Part shown: in pieces, positions 23,575 to 57,104 of the stretch | Layout of the letters: each line of letters opens with the position of its first letter | How positions within the stretch are numbered: the first letter of the stretch is position 1 | From: Lachnospiraceae bacterium | Lineage (GTDB): Bacteria > Bacillota > Clostridia > Lachnospirales > Lachnospiraceae | Assembly (NCBI GenBank): GCA_017503735.1 | Contig: JAFVSN010000031.1 | Coordinates: 180,882 to 244,881, forward strand | Direction of reading: 5' to 3' | DNA length: 64,000 nucleotides | Translations under genes and position numbers: made by a program | Notes under the pieces: model-generated | Database searches by the model: none | What the model was told of the DNA's origin: nothing | Seen by the model: only the letters and a program-made list of their open reading frames with translations

Positions 23575-23605
23575 GACCTGTCGCAGAGATGTGACAGGTC
23601 TTTTT
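23575..23605 (+). terminator. Terminator after the alpha-xylosidase gene
   Basis: GACCTGTC, loop of about 10 nt, GACAGGTC, then TTTTT. Confidence 0.88.
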
Positions 23606-23609
23606 GCAC

Positions 23610-23733
23610 AAAAAAGAAACGAGCAACCTTTTCCGGCCCGAAGGCTTTACTCAGTAACAAAACCCGTTTCTGAAAGGGAAGCGAGCTACCCGTTTGGACC
23701 GTAAGGCCGTACACGACACAAAACCCGCTTCTT
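23610..23733 (-). ncRNA. Candidate minus-strand small RNA with a tandem structured motif
   Basis: Two about 55-nt units (23616-23670 and 23678-23731) share conserved blocks. On the minus strand each starts GAARCGGGTTTTGT and ends GCTCGYTTC, and the closing stems co-vary (GAAACG/CGTTTC versus GAAGCG/CGCTTC). Each has a small inner hairpin (GCC TTCG GGC; GGCC TTAC GGTC). The second unit runs into six T residues, forming an intrinsic terminator, and a consensus promoter lies just upstream. No minus-strand gene follows, so it appears to be a free-standing RNA of about 124 nt. Family not recognised. Confidence 0.65.
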
Positions 23734-23739
23734 GAATTT

Positions 23740-23768
23740 ATGATATGCGGTGGGGGAGGAAAAGTCAA
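23740..23768 (-). promoter_or_regulatory. Promoter of the tandem-motif small RNA
   Basis: Read on minus: TTGACT (23768-23763), 17-bp spacer, TATCAT (23745-23740). Confidence 0.75.
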
Positions 23769-23779
23769 GAGGGAAATGG

Positions 23780-23807
23780 GATAACGTTCAATATATTGAA
23801 CGTTATC
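23780..23807. promoter_or_regulatory. 28-nt perfect palindrome, possible operator
   Basis: GATAACGTTCAATA joined directly to its own complement, with no loop and no T tail, 11 bp upstream of the minus-strand -35 box. This looks more like a dimeric repressor site than a terminator. The rest of the gene-free stretch 23808-24111 holds only the plus promoter and leader of the repeat-protein gene. Confidence 0.45.
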
Positions 23808-24111: not shown

Positions 24112-24543
24112 ATGGCAAAATATTGGATTAGAAATATGTATACAGGTCCGGGAGGCGGAGCGTATACGGGTCCAGGAGGTGGATTATATACAGGTCCGGG
24201 AGGAGGGGCATATACGGGTCCAGGAGGCGGAATGTATACGGGTCCAGGAGGAGGAGCATATACAGGCCCAGGAGGCGGACTATACACGGGTCCAGGAGGA
24301 GGGGCATATACAGGTCCGGGAGGAGGATTGTATACAGGTCCAGGAGGAGGCCTATATACAGGTCCGGGAGGAGGCCTATATACAGGTCCGGGAGGAGGGA
24401 TGTATACTGGTCCGGATGCAGAACCATATATGGCTATACATCCACCCTTTCCACTATTTGCTAAAGAATTACATAAGATGGGTATGCATCGAGAAGCAAA
24501 TATGATAGAAGATGCTTTGAAAAGCATAGGATGGCGATTTTAA
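24112..24543 (+). CDS. YTGPGGG octapeptide-repeat protein
   Basis: 143 residues. After a 9-residue lead (MAKYWIRNM) come eleven exact copies of YTGPGGGx, where x is Ala, Leu or Met, then a degenerate twelfth (YTGPDAEP). A C-terminal tail of about 45 residues, PFPLFAKELHKMG with a helical REANMIEDALKSIGW, may be a helical hairpin. The 24-nt DNA repeats vary at third positions, so the peptide is under selection. ATG 24112 follows AGGAGG. Glycine/proline-rich repeats suggest an extended or polymerising structure. I know no assigned function. It is the first AT-rich gene and marks the edge of the defence island. Confidence 0.8.
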   Translation: MAKYWIRNMYTGPGGGAYTGPGGGLYTGPGGGAYTGPGGGMYTGPGGGAYTGPGGGLYTGPGGGAYTGPGGGLYTGPGGGLYTGPGGGLYTGPGGGMYTGPDAEPYMAIHPPFPLFAKELHKMGMHREANMIEDALKSIGWRF

Positions 24544-24830: not shown

Positions 24831-26000
24831 ATGAACGAAGAAAAAAGGTTTTATGTTCATCTATGTAGCAAAGAATATGAAGTTAGTACGAGAATTTCAT
24901 TTAGAGATTTGAGAAAAATTCAAGAAGCTAAGGAAGATAGTGCAATAGATTTTCAAAAAACTTTTGCTGATTTAGTTTATGAAAAAATCGAGGAAGAAAG
25001 TAAGCCAGTAGTGGATGATATATATTCGGATGAAAAATTAAAATTATGTGCAGAGAAGTTTGTTTCGATAGATAGCAAAGTAGAAGAATTTTATAAGGTT
25101 AATCAAGAAAGAATGGGACTTTATGAGGCGGTACTCACTTCAATCTATGAGAAATACGATGAAGAGTTTAAAGAATTGGTAAAAGGACTTCCGAAGATAA
25201 ACAATGAAGCATTAGCAGGGATTTCTGCTACACTAAATGCTTTTAGACAATCTATCGTTAAAATAGTGACATCCCCCATGATGGAAAATATTGCGAAAAT
25301 AGCAGCACAAGTATCAGAGACACTAGGCAGTATTGCAGTAAATATAGGGGAAATGATGCAAAATATAAAAATTCCTACTATTTCTGAAGAGAGAAAAGAG
25401 GAATTGAGGGTGGCTTATAGGGCGTGGGGAAGTTATGGATGGACGGTCATGCCTGATTTACCGTTGTCTGTTTTTTTAGACTGTCCTGTGGATATAAAAG
25501 AAGCAAATAAGTTAGCCTTAAGTTATTGTACAAATAAGGACATGGAAAAATTGTTTGATATTCTTCGTGATATGAAAGATGTAAAAATGTCGGATTTAGG
25601 GGAAGCAATATTTGATTTTAAGCATAAACAGTATAAGTCATGTGCATTGATCTTGTTTGGGCTTATTGATGCAAAATTAATTAGACTACAACAAAAAGAT
25701 AAAAATCCAAATGGTAAGTGGCGTGCGGTGGGACAAAGCGCGGCTAATAAAGTTCTGGATAATATAAAAAGAGAACAGGATTTAGAGAAGAAATTTTTCT
25801 TGTTACTGGATTATGAAAACATCCTTGCATGCTTAAATATTGTTTTTGCGAATGCCAGGGATTTTAGAAAGCAACCTATTGTGATTAATAGAAATTTTAT
25901 AGACCATGGAATGATGACCAAGAAGGTAATTAGAAAAGATTGTGTTCAATTGTTTCTATTATTTTACAACTTGTTGATGTTTATAGATTTTGCATCGTAA
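24831..26000 (+). CDS. Unknown protein with a C-terminal HEPN-like RNase motif
   Basis: 389 residues, AT-rich codons. The N-terminal half is helical and charged with an amphipathic stretch (ENIAKIAAQVSETLGSIAV); there is a conserved-looking YGWTVMPDLPLSVF near residue 205; the C-terminal third is all-helical and contains R354-NFID-H359-G, matching the R-x4-H signature of HEPN ribonucleases such as those of Abi and ApeA-type phage defence. No membrane segment of convincing length. ATG 24831 follows AAAGGAGAT and a TATAAT at 24799-24804. A second HEPN-like gene follows at 16 nt, then Gabija. The HEPN assignment rests on motif and helical context only. Confidence 0.6.
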   Translation: MNEEKRFYVHLCSKEYEVSTRISFRDLRKIQEAKEDSAIDFQKTFADLVYEKIEEESKPVVDDIYSDEKLKLCAEKFVSIDSKVEEFYKVNQERMGLYEAVLTSIYEKYDEEFKELVKGLPKINNEALAGISATLNAFRQSIVKIVTSPMMENIAKIAAQVSETLGSIAVNIGEMMQNIKIPTISEERKEELRVAYRAWGSYGWTVMPDLPLSVFLDCPVDIKEANKLALSYCTNKDMEKLFDILRDMKDVKMSDLGEAIFDFKHKQYKSCALILFGLIDAKLIRLQQKDKNPNGKWRAVGQSAANKVLDNIKREQDLEKKFFLLLDYENILACLNIVFANARDFRKQPIVINRNFIDHGMMTKKVIRKDCVQLFLLFYNLLMFIDFAS

Positions 26001-26015
26001 AGTGAGGAGGATATC

Positions 26016-26537
26016 TTGTTAATAAGTACTATTGATATTATTGAACAAGCAGATAAGTTTTTGGATGTAGCATTATATAGTATCGGTCCAGAGTACAATG
26101 ATGGATTTTATGTTGGCGATAAGATTTTGGATGATGAATTAATGAAATATCTGTTTCCTAAAGAAGTAGTGACAGCAACAGTTAATTGTGCATTTAGTTG
26201 TGAATTATACATAAAATCAATGTTAAATGAAGGAAATGTTGTAAGGGGACATAAGCTAGAAGATTTGTTTAATCAACTCGATGATAAATGGAAAGGCGTG
26301 ATTATTCGATTAATGGAATATGAGGAAATAGTTTTTTGCCATTTTTTGAAACAATCATCAAATGCTTTTGAAAAATGGAGATATATTTATGAGAGAGAGG
26401 AAGATGAGAGAAGAATATATTTTGTGTTTTTAAAAAAGTTTGCAGTGACATTACAAAAAGTAGCTTATGGAAAATATCATTATGCTGAAGATTTCATAGA
26501 GAAAATAGATAAAGCATTATTAGAAGAATCAATGTAA
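26016..26537 (+). CDS. Small HEPN-like protein
   Basis: 173 residues, all-helical. Patterns such as CAFSCELYIKSML, RGHKLEDLFNQL and FEKWRYIYE resemble small HEPN-domain proteins, though a clear R-x4-6-H pair is not visible, so it may be non-catalytic. Start is TTG 26016 with GAGGAGG 5 nt upstream, the only start with a good ribosome site. It is probably co-transcribed with the preceding gene, and the two could form one module. Function unassigned. Confidence 0.55.
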   Translation: MLISTIDIIEQADKFLDVALYSIGPEYNDGFYVGDKILDDELMKYLFPKEVVTATVNCAFSCELYIKSMLNEGNVVRGHKLEDLFNQLDDKWKGVIIRLMEYEEIVFCHFLKQSSNAFEKWRYIYEREEDERRIYFVFLKKFAVTLQKVAYGKYHYAEDFIEKIDKALLEESM

Positions 26538-26663: not shown

Positions 26664-26804
26664 TAAATGAAAAAGGTATTATGGAATTGGAACTTGTGAG
26701 ATAGAGGAATGAGTACGGTTTGCTTATATATTGATGACTTGTATATGGGTATTTTGGCAGAGAATAATTAGAAGATGAATCTAGTAAAAAGGAGGTATAC
26801 GACT

Positions 26805-28490
26805 ATGAGATTTGAATCTATAACAATAAAAAACTTTAGAAACTTTGAAGATATATCAATATGCCTAACTAATAAAAATATTCTATTTGGAATGAATGAT
26901 GTGGGTAAGACAAATTTCTTATATGCTCTAAGATTTGTTTTCGATAAGGATATTAGAAAGCAGAATTTTAATGATACAGATTATTATAAAAGAAAAGTGG
27001 ATGAACCAATAGAAATCATTATAGCAATTGATATTAGTGATACAGAAGATGAGAATAGTCAAAAATTGCGTGCAAAATTAAAAGGTGCGTTACTATCTGA
27101 ACAAGATACAGTGTATATTAAGGTAAAAGCTATTTATGATGAAAAAGAGATGATGGGTATTCCTATCTTATATTGGGGTGGAGATTTAGAAGAACTAGAA
27201 GAAATGAAGGTTCATGGGACATACTTTGAAATTGACTATGTTTTTAATGTGATTTACATTGACGCATATGTTGATATGTATGCGTTGTTCAAAAGGAATG
27301 CGAATGCCTTGCTTGTGAATGATAAAGAACAAGATAAGGATATTTTAGAAAACATTCATAAAACATGTAAAGATTTAAATGCACAAATATCTGGATTATC
27401 CGGAATAAAGGCTTTTGAAGAAAAAATTGCACCTGAGTACAAGAAGTATAGGCATGAGGAAGTGTCTGTGTCAGTAAAATCAGAGATAGCGGTAAAGGGA
27501 CTGTATTCAAATATTGTACCTTATATCAAACACGATGCGGAGGAATTTTTATATCCTACATCAGGAGAAGGACGAAAGAAATTGCTGGTATATGCTATTT
27601 TTGACCTGCTTTCAAAAGAAGAGGAAGAAAAGAAAATAAACTTGTTCTTGATTGAGGAACCAGAAAATCATTTGCATAGATCGATGCAAATCGCATTATC
27701 GCATATACTCTTTAATGATGATAAATACCAATATTTGTTTATGACCACACATTCACCATATGTGTTAACAGAGATGGATCAGGTAAATTTAATTCGCATT
27801 TATAATGCGGATAAAATTTCAAGTAAAAGTGTTCTTTATACTGTGCCAGATAAATTTAAAAGTCAAAGAAAAATGTTGAATAGAGGGTTAGTGGAGGCTA
27901 TTTTTGCAGATAAAGTTTTACTTGTTGAGGGCCCTTCTGAAAATGTTTTGTTTGGAAAAGTGTTGTCTGAAATAAATCCTTTTTACGAAGCGGATGGTAT
28001 TTATATATTACCCGTAGGAGGATTTGGATTTAGACCATATTTTGAAATACTAGATGCTTTACAGATAGCTAATGTAATTAAGACAGACAATGACTTAAGG
28101 AAGATAAAAGGAGAAGAGAAATATAGTGTATTGGGTTTTTTACGAATAAATAATTATATCGGACAAGCAATTCTGCCAGATAGTCCTGTTGATGAAGCTG
28201 GTGTGGAAGCAAAGCGTAATCTATATGATACAAATCGAGATAAATTAGATCAAATTCGCGAAAAACATTCTTTGTATTTGTCAAGATGTAGTCTGGAAGA
28301 GGATTTGGATGAGGCAATCCATGAGCAATTGATTGAATATCTTCCAAATGCAGAAGGAGACCCTATTGGATATTTGCAAGATGCAAAAAACAATCATATG
28401 GTTGAATTGGTGGAAAAACTTACGACAGAAGATTGTAAAAATATTTATGAACATTATAACTTTGTATGTTTAAAGGAGGTTATGAGCTAA
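26805..28490 (+). CDS. gajA: OLD-family ATP-dependent endonuclease, Gabija GajA-like
   Basis: 561 residues: N-terminal ABC-type ATPase with Walker A GMNDVGKTN (Lys35), Walker B LIEEPENHLH (Glu284/285) and TTHSPYVL; then a TOPRIM nuclease domain with Glu375 in LLVEGPSENVLF, KTDND (Asp428/Asp430) and a later acidic SLEEDLDEA. In Gabija, GajA is a nucleotide-gated DNA-nicking nuclease that complexes with GajB against phage. The length and the directly overlapping helicase gene support Gabija rather than a lone OLD protein. ATG 26805 follows AAGGAGG; the frame is open 10 codons further up. AT-rich compared with flanking chromosome. Confidence 0.88.
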   Translation: MRFESITIKNFRNFEDISICLTNKNILFGMNDVGKTNFLYALRFVFDKDIRKQNFNDTDYYKRKVDEPIEIIIAIDISDTEDENSQKLRAKLKGALLSEQDTVYIKVKAIYDEKEMMGIPILYWGGDLEELEEMKVHGTYFEIDYVFNVIYIDAYVDMYALFKRNANALLVNDKEQDKDILENIHKTCKDLNAQISGLSGIKAFEEKIAPEYKKYRHEEVSVSVKSEIAVKGLYSNIVPYIKHDAEEFLYPTSGEGRKKLLVYAIFDLLSKEEEEKKINLFLIEEPENHLHRSMQIALSHILFNDDKYQYLFMTTHSPYVLTEMDQVNLIRIYNADKISSKSVLYTVPDKFKSQRKMLNRGLVEAIFADKVLLVEGPSENVLFGKVLSEINPFYEADGIYILPVGGFGFRPYFEILDALQIANVIKTDNDLRKIKGEEKYSVLGFLRINNYIGQAILPDSPVDEAGVEAKRNLYDTNRDKLDQIREKHSLYLSRCSLEEDLDEAIHEQLIEYLPNAEGDPIGYLQDAKNNHMVELVEKLTTEDCKNIYEHYNFVCLKEVMS

Positions 28491-30025
28491 TGTTATCTCC
28501 TATACAAAAACAAATAGTAGAGCAACCTGGGAACTTGATTGTTCGTGCAAGCGCGGGAACAGGCAAGACGCACACTATGGTGTCAAAAATTGTATATGAT
28601 ATAGAAAATCAGCATTCACATAAAGTGGTCGCGGCAATTACTTTTACAATTAAAGCGGCAAATGAAATAAAAGAGAGGATGACAATTGATACAGCAAATC
28701 ATTTTATTGGGACGAATAATAGTTTTGCTATAGAAGAGGTTATTAAGCCGTTCATGAAAGATGTGTTTGGCAAGGAATATAAAGTAGATATGAGTACCGA
28801 TTATTCGGCAAAAGTAAACTCTTTTGCCGAAGGGGTCGCAAAGATAAAAGACGAACAGATTTTATGTTCCTATTTTGATAGTAAGGAAAATTTTATTTTT
28901 CAACTTGCCTTGAATATCTTAAAAAAATCAAAAGCATGCCAATTGTATTTACAAGCAAAATATTTCAAAATCTATGTCGATGAATATCAAGACTGTGATA
29001 AAGATATGCATGACTTTTTTATGTATATTAGTGAAATATTGAAAATTGATACTTTTGTTGTGGGTGATGAGAAGCAATCCATTTATATGTGGCGTGGTGC
29101 ATATCCTCAAGCATTCATGGATATTTGGGAACGGCAAGAGTTTTCAAAGATGTTTATGAGAGATAATTTTCGTTCTTGTCAGCAAGTACAAAACTATTCA
29201 AATCTACTATGCAATGAAACAAGAGATTTGTATAGTCCTGTAGAGGATTTATCTGCTGTGTTAATGATATGTGCGTCAGGAACTAATTGGGTACCTTCGG
29301 TTATTCCGCATTTGGATCCAGATAAGAAATGCGCATTGTTAAGGTATAGTAATGCGAATGCAGAAATTGGAGCAAAAGAGCTGTCGGTCGGGGGGGTGGA
29401 ATTTACATATGTTCCACAAACGCCAATAGCGGATATAACAACTGAAGCGGCGTGGATTTATAACGCTGTGGCAAAGTACTTTGTCTTGCCTAAATATTCA
29501 GTTTATGACTTTAGAGATGAAATACCGAACGAAGTAGTAGGAAATAAAAGAGTCGTGAATTATATAAAAAAAGTGCTGAGCGTTTTAGACGAATGTATAA
29601 AAGCAGAAGATGTAGATGGATTTTCAAAACAAGTCGCAGAAATGGCTGAATACTTGGGGTATGAGACAAAAGATGACCATTGTGAAAGTTTATACAAAAC
29701 GATAAGTGATAAAAGATTTCATCCGGCATTTAATGTAGATGGGTTGCAGAGAATTGCTATTACTTTTCATTCTTCAAAAGGTTTGGAGTTTGACCAGGTG
29801 ATTTTATTTGTTTCAGATTATAGATTATCAAGTGTACAGGATATTTATAATTACTATGTGGCTACCACTAGAGCAAAAACTAAGTTGATTATGGTGTATA
29901 TCAATAATGATTGGAATGCAACTCAGTTTGCGAAAAATATTAATAATATCTTGGACAAATCGGATCTAAAAATGAGTGATGTGGCAACCGTTGTGGACTG
30001 TATACATAAGAAGGTTGTATGTTGA
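28490..30025 (+). CDS. gajB: UvrD/PcrA-like helicase, Gabija GajB-like
   Basis: 511 residues, a short SF1 helicase of GajB size. Motifs: Walker A ASAGTGKTHT (Lys26), motif II VDEYQD (Asp164-Asp168), motif III VGDEKQSIYMWRGA, motif V ITFHSSKGLEFD and motif VI YVATTRAK. It lacks the large accessory domains of UvrD/Rep. The start overlaps the GajA stop by one base (TAATG), with AAAGGAGG upstream, so the two are translationally coupled. In known Gabija systems GajB senses DNA ends and activates GajA. Confidence 0.88.
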   Translation: MLSPIQKQIVEQPGNLIVRASAGTGKTHTMVSKIVYDIENQHSHKVVAAITFTIKAANEIKERMTIDTANHFIGTNNSFAIEEVIKPFMKDVFGKEYKVDMSTDYSAKVNSFAEGVAKIKDEQILCSYFDSKENFIFQLALNILKKSKACQLYLQAKYFKIYVDEYQDCDKDMHDFFMYISEILKIDTFVVGDEKQSIYMWRGAYPQAFMDIWERQEFSKMFMRDNFRSCQQVQNYSNLLCNETRDLYSPVEDLSAVLMICASGTNWVPSVIPHLDPDKKCALLRYSNANAEIGAKELSVGGVEFTYVPQTPIADITTEAAWIYNAVAKYFVLPKYSVYDFRDEIPNEVVGNKRVVNYIKKVLSVLDECIKAEDVDGFSKQVAEMAEYLGYETKDDHCESLYKTISDKRFHPAFNVDGLQRIAITFHSSKGLEFDQVILFVSDYRLSSVQDIYNYYVATTRAKTKLIMVYINNDWNATQFAKNINNILDKSDLKMSDVATVVDCIHKKVVC

Positions 30026-30433: not shown

Positions 30434-31519
30434 ATGGCTTACAATGTTTTAGATCTGTTTTCCGGTGCAGGGGGACTTTCAAGAGGATTTATGGATGCGG
30501 GATATAATGTTGTATTAGGTGTGGATTTTGATGATGCAGCACTTAAAACGTTTAAAGAAAATCATGGTAAATCAGAGGCAATGAAACTAGATTTGTTTGA
30601 TCACGATAATATTTCTAGAATAACAGATTACCTTGACAGTAATGGTTTTGGGATAGATGTATTGGTTGGCGGCCCTCCGTGTCAGGGCTTTTCGGTTGCG
30701 GGTCCGAGAGATTTGAATGATAAGAGAAATTCACTATATCTTGCAATGGTTAAACTTGCAAAGATTCTAAAACCACAGGCTGTCGTTTTAGAAAATGTTC
30801 CGGGTATGATACAAATAAATGATGGTATTGGCGCGAAAAGGATAATTGAAGATTTTGCAGAGATTGGTTATAAGATGGTGCCAAAGCTGTTATATGCGCC
30901 TGACTATGGTGTTCCGCAAATTAGAAAAAGAGTGTTTTTTGTAGGGTTAAGAGAAGCTAATGTGGAATTCAGTTTTCCGGAAGCATTTGTAGATAAGGAA
31001 CATTATATTACTTGTGAGGATGCAATTGGCGATTTGCCTTCTTTACAGACAGTTGCCGGAGAAATTATATATGGAGAAGTGGAGCAAGATTATTCTACAG
31101 AAGCGTCTAATGATTATCAGAAAGAAATGAGAAAAAGAAGCGCGAAGATACATAATCATATAGGTAGTATTCCTATCGAAAAAACAAAGACCATGATTTC
31201 AATGGTTCCAGAAGGAAAGAACTATAAATCGCTTCCTGAAGAGTATAGTCGGTTATATAAATATCATGAGGCTTTGACGAGATATCATAGTAAAAAACCT
31301 TCGCTTACTATTAACACGGGACACAGATCTCATTTTCACTATAAGTGGAATAGAATTCCTACAGTGCGGGAGAGTGCAAGACTACAGAGTTTTCCGGATG
31401 ATTTTATTTTCTATGGAAATAAATCCGAGCAGTATAGACAAGTAGGGAATGCGGTTCCGCCATTGCTAGGGAAAGTGGTTGCAAAGGAATTGTTAAAGTA
31501 TCTTAAGGAGAATAATTGA
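30434..31519 (+). CDS. DNA (cytosine-5)-methyltransferase 1
   Basis: 361 residues with the canonical m5C order: SAM-binding LDLFSGAGGLSRGF, catalytic Cys83 in GGPPCQGFS, ENVPGM, motif VIII-like QIRKRVFFVG, and C-terminal RLQSFPDDF with QVGNAVPP. It protects host DNA from the linked nuclease. In LlaJI/BsuMI-type systems two different m5C enzymes each modify one strand of an asymmetric site; this is the first. The recognition sequence cannot be read from the protein. Confidence 0.93.
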   Translation: MAYNVLDLFSGAGGLSRGFMDAGYNVVLGVDFDDAALKTFKENHGKSEAMKLDLFDHDNISRITDYLDSNGFGIDVLVGGPPCQGFSVAGPRDLNDKRNSLYLAMVKLAKILKPQAVVLENVPGMIQINDGIGAKRIIEDFAEIGYKMVPKLLYAPDYGVPQIRKRVFFVGLREANVEFSFPEAFVDKEHYITCEDAIGDLPSLQTVAGEIIYGEVEQDYSTEASNDYQKEMRKRSAKIHNHIGSIPIEKTKTMISMVPEGKNYKSLPEEYSRLYKYHEALTRYHSKKPSLTINTGHRSHFHYKWNRIPTVRESARLQSFPDDFIFYGNKSEQYRQVGNAVPPLLGKVVAKELLKYLKENN

Positions 31520-32742
31520 TGAAACAGTATAAATTTATAGATTTATTTGCAGGATGTGGAGGACTTGAAGATGGTTTTTTGCAATCCGGTAGATATAAAG
31601 ATGTGGCTGCGGTAGAATGGCTTAAACCGCAGGTTGATACATTGCGCCAGAGATTGAAGACAAGCTGGGGAGTGAAAGATGCGGATGAGAGAGTTATGCA
31701 TTTTGATATTCAAAGAGAAGAGGAACTTTTTGGAGGGTGGAAAGATCCTGAATTTGGCGAAAGTGTTGGACTTGACGATTTTGTGAATAAAGAAAATGGA
31801 ATAGATGTTATTATTGGAGGACCGCCCTGTCAGGCATATTCGGTTGCAGGTAGGGTTCGTGATGAAAACGGGATGAGGGATGATTACCGTAATTACTTAT
31901 TTGAACATTATCTAAATGTGGTTGATAGATATAAACCAGTGCTGTTTGTTTTTGAAAATGTCCCAGGTATATTGAGCGCTACCCCTACTGGAGTTCCGAT
32001 TACTGATTTGATTCGGCAAGGGTTTGAAAGAGTTGGTTATGAGATTATAGAAGATTTAAGGAATGCAAAGGTGAATGCCGCAGATTATGGCGTTCCTCAG
32101 AACAGAGAAAGAGTAATAATTGTAGGAATAAAGAGAGGTGCATGTGAAGATATCCAATCAAAACTGCATTATTTTTATGAAGAACTTTTGCCGCAATATA
32201 GGAGCGAAAAGAAGGTTACTGTAAAGGAAGCAATAGGGGATTTGCCAGCATGTGTTCCGCTTTGGGATGAAGAAAACCAGAAGAAGAGGAAGTCGCATTC
32301 AGTTCCGAAATGTAATTATACATGGCATAAGCCAAGATTCCATAACTTGAGAGATATGGATACATTTAAAATTTTAGCAGAGGATATTGAATCTGGAAAG
32401 AGAGAGTACGATAGTCGGAAGATAAGTGAGTTATATGAGGAAAAGGTTGGTTCGAAATCGCCAATACATCGATACCACGTATTGGATGCAGATTTACCAA
32501 GTACTACGATTATTGCACATTTATATAAAGATGGAAATCGTTTTATTCACTATGATTCAAAGCAGAGTAGGTCAATTACCGTAAGAGAAGCGGCGAGATT
32601 ACAGTCCTTTGCAGATGATTTTGATTTTGTTGGAAGCCAGGGAAATGCATATCAAATGATTGGCAATGCAGTTCCACCACGATTGGCAAAATGTATTGCA
32701 CTTGCACTTGGTTGTCTTTTAGATGAGATTGTTAAAGAATAG
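31519..32742 (+). CDS. DNA (cytosine-5)-methyltransferase 2
   Basis: 407 residues, a second distinct m5C methyltransferase: FIDLFAGCGGLEDGF, catalytic Cys104 in GGPPCQAYS, ENVPGILS, QNRERVIIVG, and RLQSFADDF with MIGNAVPPRL. The ATG at 31519 overlaps the previous stop (TGATG) and is preceded by AAGGAG, so it is coupled to methyltransferase 1. The target-recognition regions of the two clearly differ, consistent with two half-sites or two strands. Confidence 0.93.
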   Translation: MKQYKFIDLFAGCGGLEDGFLQSGRYKDVAAVEWLKPQVDTLRQRLKTSWGVKDADERVMHFDIQREEELFGGWKDPEFGESVGLDDFVNKENGIDVIIGGPPCQAYSVAGRVRDENGMRDDYRNYLFEHYLNVVDRYKPVLFVFENVPGILSATPTGVPITDLIRQGFERVGYEIIEDLRNAKVNAADYGVPQNRERVIIVGIKRGACEDIQSKLHYFYEELLPQYRSEKKVTVKEAIGDLPACVPLWDEENQKKRKSHSVPKCNYTWHKPRFHNLRDMDTFKILAEDIESGKREYDSRKISELYEEKVGSKSPIHRYHVLDADLPSTTIIAHLYKDGNRFIHYDSKQSRSITVREAARLQSFADDFDFVGSQGNAYQMIGNAVPPRLAKCIALALGCLLDEIVKE

Positions 32743-32753
32743 GTGATGGATTG

Positions 32754-35396
32754 ATGACAGAAAAAACAGAAAAGCTTATACTGGAATTAACAGGGGCTTT
32801 GTTTGAAAAGAAAGCTATTTTACTTATGGGAAACAGTGGGGTGGGAAAAACATTTTTGGCAAAGGAAATAGCAAAACTTTTAAAAGAAAAACAGTATAGT
32901 GTATATCCGGCGAGTGATGTGCAGGATGTGGAGGTTGAGGTATTATCATGTCATAATAGTGTTACATATGAAGATGTTGTTGGTGGAATATCTACGAATA
33001 CAGGTCACGGGAATATGTCCTTTGAGTACAAGGATAAAATACTGATTGAAACACTGTATAAAGCCGCTGATGCATTCGAAAATGGGTTGGGGAAAAAATA
33101 TGTTTTGATATTTGATGATATTCAGAGAAGTGAGATGTCTTGTCTGTTGGGAGATGCAATACAAGCGATAGGTTTAGAAGGAGAAAAGCATAAGTTTTAT
33201 TTGAATTCAGGTGTCATGGTTGATGTAACGCCAAATTTTTACGTTATTGCAACTTATAATTCGACCGAGACAGGATCTGTAAATATTTGCAATGAATTGC
33301 TAGGAAGATTTTATGCGAGAGAGATCCTGTCTGATGCTGCTTATATTACGGAAGAATCTGACTCGGAAAATGCAGCAATGTATAACCGGGTTAGAAGCAC
33401 GATTTTGACCTATCTTGACATACAATACAAGACAAGTTCGTATGAGCAAAACAGATATCTTTTGGGGCATGGATATTTTTACGGAAATAATTTGACGCTC
33501 AAAATGAAACACCAACTCATTCCGATTTTAAAACAGTATATAGCAGAGGGGATTTTGGATAAAAGTGCTGAAACAGCGATAAAGCTCCTGGAAGATATGT
33601 GTAATGAAAAAATGAAGAATACAGGGGTGGAGGAAGAAGAAAATTGTTTTTGTGGTTATTCGCATAATGTCTCTTCTCACAGGTTTTTGACAGAAGAAGC
33701 CACGTCTGTTCCTCTTGAGAATATTATTGGAAGAATTATTGATCAACGTTTATTGTCTAATAGTGATGTGAAGTCCAGATTGCTTTTTAATACACAAGTA
33801 TGTTTTAGAGAAAAAGAAGTGTATGGTGTTACATATCAGGCACAGTTGTTGGCGAATGGCACTCAGTATGACAAAATACGGCGTGGTGGTAGTGATGGAC
33901 GGAAATTGTATAATGGTGGTACTCTTGAGGTAGATGGTATAGAATATCATTTTACAGGGGGAATGCAACCACGTGAATATACGGTGAGAAATCCAAAGAG
34001 GAAAATGGAAATCTGGAACATTTTGGATGGATATGAGATTGGAGAATCGACCTCTCCAAATGTAATACTATTCAGAATAACATGGCAGTATTACATGACG
34101 CTTATAAGCAATTACGAGACGTATCTTTTGTCAAATCCAAATGATGTTGGAAAAAGGAAACTGTTAGAATATATAAAACATGAGTGGGAAGATTTCTTAA
34201 GTGCATTTAAGAAAATAAAACCAATAGCAGATTCAGATGCAAATAGAAAAGCAGAAAACAATAAAAATGCTAATTTTGAAGTTCGAAAGCTCATTAGCGA
34301 GTTATCTGTATTGTGGAGTGATTTAGGCACAAGATTAAGAATGAAAGATGGTACAGAGGTTGTACTGGAAGGAGTGGAAAAAGATATGAATGAAAGTATT
34401 TATAAAGAATACAGTGAAGCGATGGATACACTTGGGATTCGGCAAATGATTTTGCAAGGACCGCCGGGAACATCAAAAACATATTCGGCAAAGGAATTTT
34501 TGAAATACATGGCACATAATTGTTCTGATACGGAACTGGAAGAGGTTCTGATTGCAGATTATAGTAAGGCAGATAGATACTGTACAAAATTAGTTATGGG
34601 TAAAGGCGAGCCCGAAATAGCATGGGATATTGTCCAGTTTCATCCGTCTTATGGATATGAGGATTTTATTCGAGGAATTAAGGTTTCGACAAAAGTGGGT
34701 TCTGATACCATTGTTTACGAAACAGTAAATAAGGTTTTAGGTAATATTGCAGAACTTGCAAAAAAACATAAAGAGACAAAGTTTTATTTGATTATTGATG
34801 AGATAAATAGAGCAAATCTTGCAACTGTATTTGGAGAGCTTATATATGGTCTTGAGTATCGGGCAGAAGCAGTGGCCACACCATATGCGGTTAATGATAA
34901 TAACAGAATATCTTTGCCTGAAAATCTTTATATTATTGGGACGATGAATACGGCAGATAAATCGATTGGTGGAATAGACTATGCAATACGAAGGAGGTTT
35001 TTGTTCTTTGAACAGCTTCCGGATGAAAACGTTATAAAGGAGTATAAGGCGAGTGAGGGTGAGACACAGAGAGCGTTAAATGAACAGGCAATAAGATTGT
35101 TTTCTCATGTAGGGAAAATCTTCGGAACAGATTACTTGAGCCCGGAGTATAGACGTGAAGATGTTCAAATTGGTCATACATATTTTCTGGTGGATAGTAA
35201 AGAAAAATTGTTGAGACGCTTTGAGTATCAGATAATTCCGATTTTGAAGGAATACTATAAGGATGGAATTATTAGTTTTGTGTCTGATGATGGTGAAAGT
35301 GGATTTTCAGGATTTCTTAATTGTATATCGGGTAAAATAAATATTTCTGCACAGAAAGAATTGGTTGAGAGAATATTTGAGGAACTTATTATGTGA
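32754..35396 (+). CDS. McrB-like AAA+ restriction subunit with two AAA modules (LlaJI R1-like)
   Basis: 880 residues. First AAA module: Walker A MGNSGVGKTF (Lys32), LIFDDIQRSEM and IATYNSTETGS with ELLGRF. A middle region of about 300 residues contains a GGTLEVDGIEYHF-type beta segment, perhaps DNA-contacting. Second module is typical McrB: Walker A QGPPGTSKTYS (Lys575), IIDEINRANLATVFGEL (from 680) and GTMNTADKSIGGIDYA (from 729). It is expected to be the NTP-driven translocase partner of the McrC/LlaJI-like protein that follows. ATG 32754 follows AGGTGAT. Confidence 0.87.
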   Translation: MTEKTEKLILELTGALFEKKAILLMGNSGVGKTFLAKEIAKLLKEKQYSVYPASDVQDVEVEVLSCHNSVTYEDVVGGISTNTGHGNMSFEYKDKILIETLYKAADAFENGLGKKYVLIFDDIQRSEMSCLLGDAIQAIGLEGEKHKFYLNSGVMVDVTPNFYVIATYNSTETGSVNICNELLGRFYAREILSDAAYITEESDSENAAMYNRVRSTILTYLDIQYKTSSYEQNRYLLGHGYFYGNNLTLKMKHQLIPILKQYIAEGILDKSAETAIKLLEDMCNEKMKNTGVEEEENCFCGYSHNVSSHRFLTEEATSVPLENIIGRIIDQRLLSNSDVKSRLLFNTQVCFREKEVYGVTYQAQLLANGTQYDKIRRGGSDGRKLYNGGTLEVDGIEYHFTGGMQPREYTVRNPKRKMEIWNILDGYEIGESTSPNVILFRITWQYYMTLISNYETYLLSNPNDVGKRKLLEYIKHEWEDFLSAFKKIKPIADSDANRKAENNKNANFEVRKLISELSVLWSDLGTRLRMKDGTEVVLEGVEKDMNESIYKEYSEAMDTLGIRQMILQGPPGTSKTYSAKEFLKYMAHNCSDTELEEVLIADYSKADRYCTKLVMGKGEPEIAWDIVQFHPSYGYEDFIRGIKVSTKVGSDTIVYETVNKVLGNIAELAKKHKETKFYLIIDEINRANLATVFGELIYGLEYRAEAVATPYAVNDNNRISLPENLYIIGTMNTADKSIGGIDYAIRRRFLFFEQLPDENVIKEYKASEGETQRALNEQAIRLFSHVGKIFGTDYLSPEYRREDVQIGHTYFLVDSKEKLLRRFEYQIIPILKEYYKDGIISFVSDDGESGFSGFLNCISGKINISAQKELVERIFEELIM

Positions 35397-56792: not shown

Positions 56793-57104
56793 AATTTCAT
56801 ATTCAAGTGATTTGATTAAGAAAAGCAATGATAAGAAGAAGTAGCACAGAGGGGAACATACAGAAAGTAGCCGGTTGATGAGAGGCGCATGGAAAGCTTT
56901 GTGTGAATACATCTTTGAGCTTCGCACCAAATTCCGCAGAACGTGCGGATAGTAGACTGCGACGGTGCCTGCACCCGTTAACGTGCTAGAGTATAAGCCG
57001 TATGGTCGTACTCGAAGAGGTAAACAGTGTAAGCTGTTTATAAACATTAGGTGGTATCGCGAGATGATTAGACTCTCGTCCTTTTGAAGGACGGGAGTTT
57101 TTTG
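56793..57104 (+). promoter_or_regulatory. T-box leader, probable tyrosine specifier
   Basis: About 310-nt leader. The T-box sequence AGGTGGTATCGCGAG lies at 57049-57063, followed by terminator ACTCTCGTCC/GGACGGGAGT with T run (57072-57103). Stem I carries the specifier region GTGAA-TAC-ATCTTTGAG, the position where B. subtilis tyrS has TAC, so the specifier (56908-56910) reads tyrosine. Uncharged tRNA-Tyr would favour the antiterminator and switch on the downstream gene. Inference about the amino acid rests on pattern matching. Confidence 0.85.

Follow-up and report, generated by a model that had tools for sequence, protein, structure and literature searches.

The 64,000-nucleotide stretch of Lachnospiraceae DNA analyzed here (the window) encodes, at 23610–23733 on the minus strand, two tandem hairpins that can be read directly from the sequence and that share one sigma-70-like promoter and one terminal U-run. 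They belong to an RNA family, a ~62-nt hairpin with its own promoter and U-run, that lacks an Rfam match, is paired with a protein domain lacking a Pfam match, and occurs in 86 of the 299 sampled genomes of the same bacterial family. The window RNA is probably an RNA antidote that was retained, or left behind, without its toxin. As judged from sequence comparisons, the reading we favor, with moderate confidence, is that the family would comprise RNA antitoxins of a type III-like, protein-binding kind, with the window an orphan array of two of them.

The window array and its conservation as RNA

The sequence-only reading had described two minus-strand units with compensatory closing stems, six Ts ending the second unit and TTGACT-17-TATCAT at the opposite end, and all of these elements were recovered by direct reading (Table 1), the Ts at 23615–23610 and the promoter at 23768–23740. 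On the minus strand, unit 1 consists of P1 (GAAGCG...CGCTTC), P2 (TCG/CGG) and P3 (GGCC/GGTC), and unit 2 is closed by GAAACG...CGTTTC, then six T. The linker arrangement without a U-run recurs in a three-unit array (L180, 5129–5314), and the terminator stem would be supplied by unit 2 through its closing stem. Loop classes are patterns defined in this work.

Table 1. Features of the window RNA and its surroundings (window coordinates).
Feature	Position	Strand	Evidence
-35 element TTGACT	23763..23768	(-)	Sequence; similar promoters across the RNA family
-10 element TATCAT, spacer 17 nt from -35	23740..23745	(-)	Sequence; family -10 position
RNA unit 1 (5'), loop class C	23678..23731	(-)	P1 GAAGCGGG/CTCGCTTC
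Linker CCTTTCA, without U-run, joining units 1 and 2	23671..23677	(-)	Sequence reading
RNA unit 2 (3'), loop class A	23616..23670	(-)	P1 GAAACGGG/CTCGTTTC
Terminal U-run, six T	23610..23615	(-)	T-run common across the family
Separate hairpin and T-run 3' of the GH31 gene; RNA boundary only	23575..23605	(+)	Inverted repeat I2
Gabija GajA and GajB	26775-30025		PADLOC/Pfam search

Three promoter-like sites were found in the region versus 1.7 ± 1.1 in shuffled sequence, so the window promoter match alone is not significant. Across the family, a promoter with at most two mismatches accompanies 71 of 82 units with an intact protein and 21 of 38 units without protein (internal array units being counted among the 38), versus 8 of 931 control stretches; 4 of 162 units were excluded from this table because of short flanks or length. 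The family −10 element ends a median of 9 nt ahead of the unit, the 5' end of the window RNA is predicted near 23733, and we infer that the RNA runs from its closing stem to its U-run. A T-run of at least five is present in 82/82 units with an intact protein, and a simple terminator scan of the region, covering loops of 3–8 nt only, found no terminator. The GH31 hairpin is present without the array in the same-genus genome G003, where BLASTN matches were limited to this terminator stretch and a short stretch elsewhere. Upstream, 11 nt from the −35 element of the RNA promoter, lies a perfect 28-bp palindrome (23780–23807, GATAACGTTCAATATATTGAACGTTATC), possibly an operator, the 22-bp core of which is unique in the genome with up to two mismatches allowed.

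Both closing stems form in the predicted fold of the window transcript. Its folding energy was no better than that of shuffles (z −0.87), as was that of unit 2 alone (z −0.58), and the unit pair including the promoter was no better than chance (z −0.16); unit 1 alone was better than shuffles (z −2.54). As the transcript energy does not exceed that of shuffles, the window by itself would not prove a structured RNA, and the beyond-chance signal is conservation in other genomes, not window folding energy. No Rfam family matched the window RNA at the gathering threshold, and at E ≤ 10 the best hit over the RNA was IMPDH RNA, whose 16.4 bits fall below the 95.4-bit cut-off; the sequence-only reading, too, could not place the RNA in a known family.

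The covariance-model search for homologues with co-varying stems, proposed with the sequence-only reading, was carried out with a model (R1) built from eight units and gave a positive result. Both window units, scoring 71 and 69 bits, are among these seeds. R1 matched 134 places in the 86 genomes at E ≤ 0.01; these places, like the 162 pooled units considered below, include weak ones (e.g. L171, L175 and L178) that may be false or degenerate. A second model, R2, matched 6 of 245 genomes of the class, five of them from the same bacterial family; the sixth match, in G421 (E 7.8e-4), falls within an ORF of 674 aa and was set aside as probably due to chance. Fifteen of the 36 loci found via the protein are labeled Lachnospiraceae; the remainder include Blautia, Dorea, Roseburia and other members of that family. 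By BLASTN, 5 of 61 genomes, the source genome included, matched at E ≤ 0.01, and the RNA had no match in phages and a single, chance-level match in plasmids. In the open-license PMC literature (preprints excluded), searched by title and abstract opening, no paper among the results listed describes the RNA or the protein, and the RNA motif may be included among the candidates of one microbiome RNA screen (PMC8040213).

Set A3 comprised 110 matches at E ≤ 0.001, drawn from 100 chosen sources. In 110 model-aligned units (106 distinct), the three helices P1 (8 bp), P2 (3 bp) and P3 (4 bp) are paired in 94.6% of cells, and 156 two-sided changes were counted, versus 40.2 ± 8.8 in shuffled and 14–48 in slid alignments. 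A model-free MAFFT alignment of 138 units, from which identical units and those outside 54–66 nt were excluded, gave 185 two-sided changes versus 57.5 shuffled (maximum 74 among 200 shuffles) and 31–96 slid. P2 is the weakest helix (81–87% paired); sliding it by −2 yields 38 two-sided cells against the 44 observed, but pairing then falls to just 38%. All covarying helices are nested, and the positions proposed for a pseudoknot, which was sought by eye, turned out to be those of nested P2. G-U pairs are frequent at two P1 pairs (U-G in 62/106 cells and G-U in 74/101), and because these would be A-C on the opposite strand, the folded molecule is the minus-strand RNA. The strand-specific G-U pairs and the promoter led us to set aside a bidirectional terminator. 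Together with the conserved promoter and the fixed register described below, the same pairs also speak against a mobile repeat or recombination site that acts as DNA at the ends of genes and has no RNA function; such an element would account for the imperfect inverted repeat of ~55 bp found where cassette-like genes end, but we regard it as very improbable.

The overlapping protein gene

At most RNA places, a plus-strand ORF terminates inside the RNA gene, such that the 3' half of the RNA runs antisense to the final ~11 codons (...YLYDIxxIKKETSxPxxS) of a ~175-aa protein and the 5' half of the RNA lies outside the ORF. The motif LYD..KKE is present at 114 of 153 examined places and absent at 39, and in 104 of the 114 the LYD motif lies exactly at −20 from the RNA 3' edge. 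The earlier proposal of a stand-alone RNA fits the orphan copy in the window; elsewhere, the RNA is usually antisense over the 3' end of a protein gene. Within the overlap, Thr is encoded by ACG in 64/69 cases versus 74/384 in the remainder of the same genes, and Ser by AGC in 56/66 versus 61/508 (74 of 82 genes were usable; the sequences are related and p-values are not taken at face value). At the level of codon statistics, these biases show that the RNA restricts codon choice within the overlap.

The conserved domain spans ~175 aa, and the open frame extends at least 60 residues further upstream in 20 of the 82 copies that are intact; an XRE-type HTH was found in the extensions of the two copies tested. 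Beyond this HTH, the protein had no match above the curated cut-offs in Pfam or NCBIfam, none in PADLOC, only weak matches in PHROG and only chance-level matches among PDB sequences (best E 0.026, a ribosomal protein); against plasmids there were none at 1e-3 and one at E 10. As no curated family names the domain, the label "toxin" is taken from the pattern alone. Besides the protein (93 loci), no neighbor family within about 1.6 kb recurs in more than nine loci, so no protein antidote is apparent.

To quantify co-occurrence, a protein profile (A2, 17 proteins) was run on the 299 family genomes and matched 103 places in 73 genomes. Matches starting at profile position 15 or earlier and ending at 155 or later were classed as near-full-length (n = 64, eight with an internal stop), and for 61 of them the RNA lies no more than 120 nt away on the opposite strand; in G070 the RNA was detected with R2, bringing the total to 62/64. 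In G318 the protein ends ...YLFDILSDGTLWEVHTAL without the KKETS tail and the RNA is absent too, and in G216 the protein abuts a contig end. In these searches, every near-full-length protein whose C-terminus was complete and whose flank was readable had the RNA. In a separate genome collection searched by protein only, the RNA was present at 30 of 36 loci. The loci without a full RNA match are L069, L073 and L076–L079, where the protein match stops short of the C-terminus; L077 retains a partial RNA match (E 0.018), and L069 diverges directly past KK, tail and RNA being lost together. The RNA was also present at 7/7 stand-alone protein copies on viral or phage records.

The converse relationship is looser. 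At E ≤ 1e-5, 85 of the 134 RNA places touch a protein C-terminus and 49 do not, and a near-full-length protein is missing from 38 of the 86 genomes that carry the RNA. When the RNA-first and protein-first searches are pooled into 162 unique units, contig-end cases included, the protein is intact in 82, broken in 20, a remnant in 19 and absent in 41. On these counts, the RNA outlives the protein gene. That near-full-length proteins are almost always accompanied by the RNA would also be expected of a cofactor or guide of an effector ribonucleoprotein, needed by the protein rather than silencing it. A cofactor should, however, vanish with its enzyme, and the 49 RNA places without a protein C-terminus, as well as the protein-free read-through arrays of the window and of G064, make this explanation quite improbable.

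Orphan RNAs and the possible role of the window array

Twenty-nine orphan units were compared with their nearest protein-linked units. Base pairing was kept at 54 changed pairs and broken at 7, and 21 of the 54 had changed on both sides and still pair. Kept pairing speaks for continuing function, although the orphan set came from a structure-scoring model that favors orphans with kept structure. At one orphan (unit u56, L102), the frame of a small HTH-type protein enters the RNA gene and ends ...KKETSKSCQ..., as would be expected had the toxin been deleted and the gene upstream of it become joined to the tail.

RNA class also follows the protein. In 62 of 82 cases, the nearest protein of less than 90% identity shares the RNA class, and this holds with the overlap masked; either specific recognition or plain co-inheritance would give such tracking. 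These data bear on the main and serious rival to the protein-binding reading, an antisense, type I-like action in which the RNA structure would provide stability and pairing and orphans would act in trans on related toxin mRNAs. The convergent 3' overlap resembles that of txpA/ratA and bsrG/SR4 (PMC4147584), complementarity is perfect wherever RNA and protein gene overlap, and the KKETS codons are near-invariant; as the 3' arm of the RNA is complementary to these conserved codons, antisense action in trans is possible. Against this, the protein is ~175 aa long and no small peptide, the 21 two-sided orphan changes keep the structure and lower complementarity to toxin mRNAs, and the match of RNA class to protein clade persists when the overlap is masked, although plain co-inheritance would also produce it. 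On balance we hold the antisense mechanism to be unlikely, if a genuine contender.

The source genome (94.6% complete) contains one detected protein copy (G000:C11:131919-132437), which has its own RNA; no protein copy was found at the window array. This toxin-like copy (L179, 9072–9941, G000:C11) is a 289-aa ORF with an HTH-like N-terminus, and its neighbors resemble a xylanase and ilvD, in both cases as judged by eye. The protein-linked units closest to window unit 1 (class C) are L014 and L110, and that closest to unit 2 (class A) is L024. A second read-through array, C+A+A with a single promoter and a single final U-run, is present in another genus (G064). Among nine other genomes of the window's genus, a single unit was found in four and a tandem pair in none.

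That last result, together with the many loci at which the protein gene next to the RNA is broken or a remnant, would fit a window array that is a non-functional remnant from which two toxin genes have been lost. The promoter, both closing stems and the U-run of the window array are nevertheless intact, and the C+A+A array shows the arrangement in another genus; we consider a non-functional remnant doubtful, and the array may be a slowly decaying one.

Under the favored protein-binding reading, the ~175-aa protein would be a toxin (effector), as suggested by the pattern, and the RNA would bind and neutralize it in a type III-like manner, its loop class fitting the cognate protein clade. From one promoter, the window array would then produce a ~125-nt precursor carrying two specificities, C and A, that could neutralize two kinds of incoming toxin; alternatively, it may guard against losing an element that introduced them. 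A wider proposal, which we put forward tentatively and consider rather unlikely, is that toxin-free, mixed-class arrays beside defense genes are RNA immunity loci in which each unit counters one class of effector delivered by mobile elements, possibly including the domain carried in giant phage polyvalent proteins. With orphan arrays of this mixed kind, immunity to incoming toxins that is based on RNA could be put to a direct test.

The placement of the RNA at the edge of a defense island was upheld, the island comprising Gabija GajA and GajB and two type II cytosine methyltransferases. Two proteins ahead of Gabija (24831–26000 and 26016–26537) had no Pfam or PADLOC match, and 30434–35396 encodes both 5-cytosine methyltransferases and, after them, an AAA_5 protein of 881 aa that weakly matches type II restriction proteins. 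A small protein at 24112–24543, with 11 YTGPGGG repeats and a non-repetitive C-terminus, had no Pfam or PADLOC match and was found only in its own genome among the 61 searched. A T-box leader lies at 56819–57086.

Relation to known systems

Phage polyvalent effectors (PBECR, ART and LPD) offer a likeness on the protein side. On six viral contigs (L213–L218), a domain 37–41% identical to that of the stand-alone protein lies inside giant ORFs (minimum lengths 1390 to 2810 aa) whose reading frames are still open where the analyzed stretch stops, and profile comparison aligned the whole domain with a probability of 100%. Four of these ORFs were scanned over 4 kb: PBECR5 and ART-PolyVal were found in one, LPD1 in another, a sub-threshold ART match in the third and nothing in the last. 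PBECR, ART and LPD domains are described in PMC5512222 as parts of phage polyvalent proteins, and by this homology the stand-alone protein is related to a domain found in proteins presumably delivered by phages. It differs in that neither the domain nor its giant-ORF counterpart has a Pfam match above cut-off and in that the six giant-ORF loci have no RNA match below E 0.4. The conserved residues of the protein, KH and KKE(T/A)S, would fit the domain description in PMC5512222. A BECR fold gained no support from profile comparison, in which the domain resembled neither the nine PBECR3 domains nor the single PBECR5 domain; a PBECR5 search matched 0/80 genomes and likewise 0/14 controls, and so carries no information.

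AbiF, as described in PMC12373285, is a phage-encoded toxic protein bound by an RNA antitoxin with two motif copies, and the pairing of a two-copy motif RNA with a protein is the likeness to the abiF RNA (RCd22 of C. difficile; RF03085). RCd22 differs in lying upstream of its gene and being co-transcribed with it, and RF03085 was absent from the Rfam matches of the window RNA, both at gathering threshold and at E ≤ 10.

The Gram-positive type I systems TxpA/RatA and BsrG/SR4 share with the present RNA a convergent transcript over the 3' end of the toxin gene, and this overlap was found here. TxpA is a 59-aa peptide (PMC4147584); here, in contrast, the partner is a ~175-aa domain and no small peptide toxin, the overlap lies within the coding region, and orphan RNAs appear to keep their fold.

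With the type III systems ToxIN, CptIN and TenpIN, the pair described here shares a small structured RNA, sometimes in tandem, beside a small protein that the RNA, here presumably, neutralizes. In those systems the repeats precede the toxin gene in its operon and are separated from it by a terminator (PMC5086642), a layout that CptIN shares (PMC4627078). The present RNA has no such operon arrangement; it is convergent and antisense, covers the last codons of the protein gene and carries a promoter of its own, and its covarying helices are nested. No kinship to ToxN, CptN or TenpN was found above cut-off in Pfam, NCBIfam or PADLOC, and PDB matches were at chance level, assuming that the ToxN and CptN chains are included there. 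As operon layout and toxin relationship were both tested and neither agreed, we do not class the RNA–protein pair as type III. Should binding of the RNA to the protein prove right, the antitoxin layout, antisense over the last codons of its toxin, would be unlike that of the described type III families, and one DNA stretch would have to serve both the protein tail and the RNA fold.
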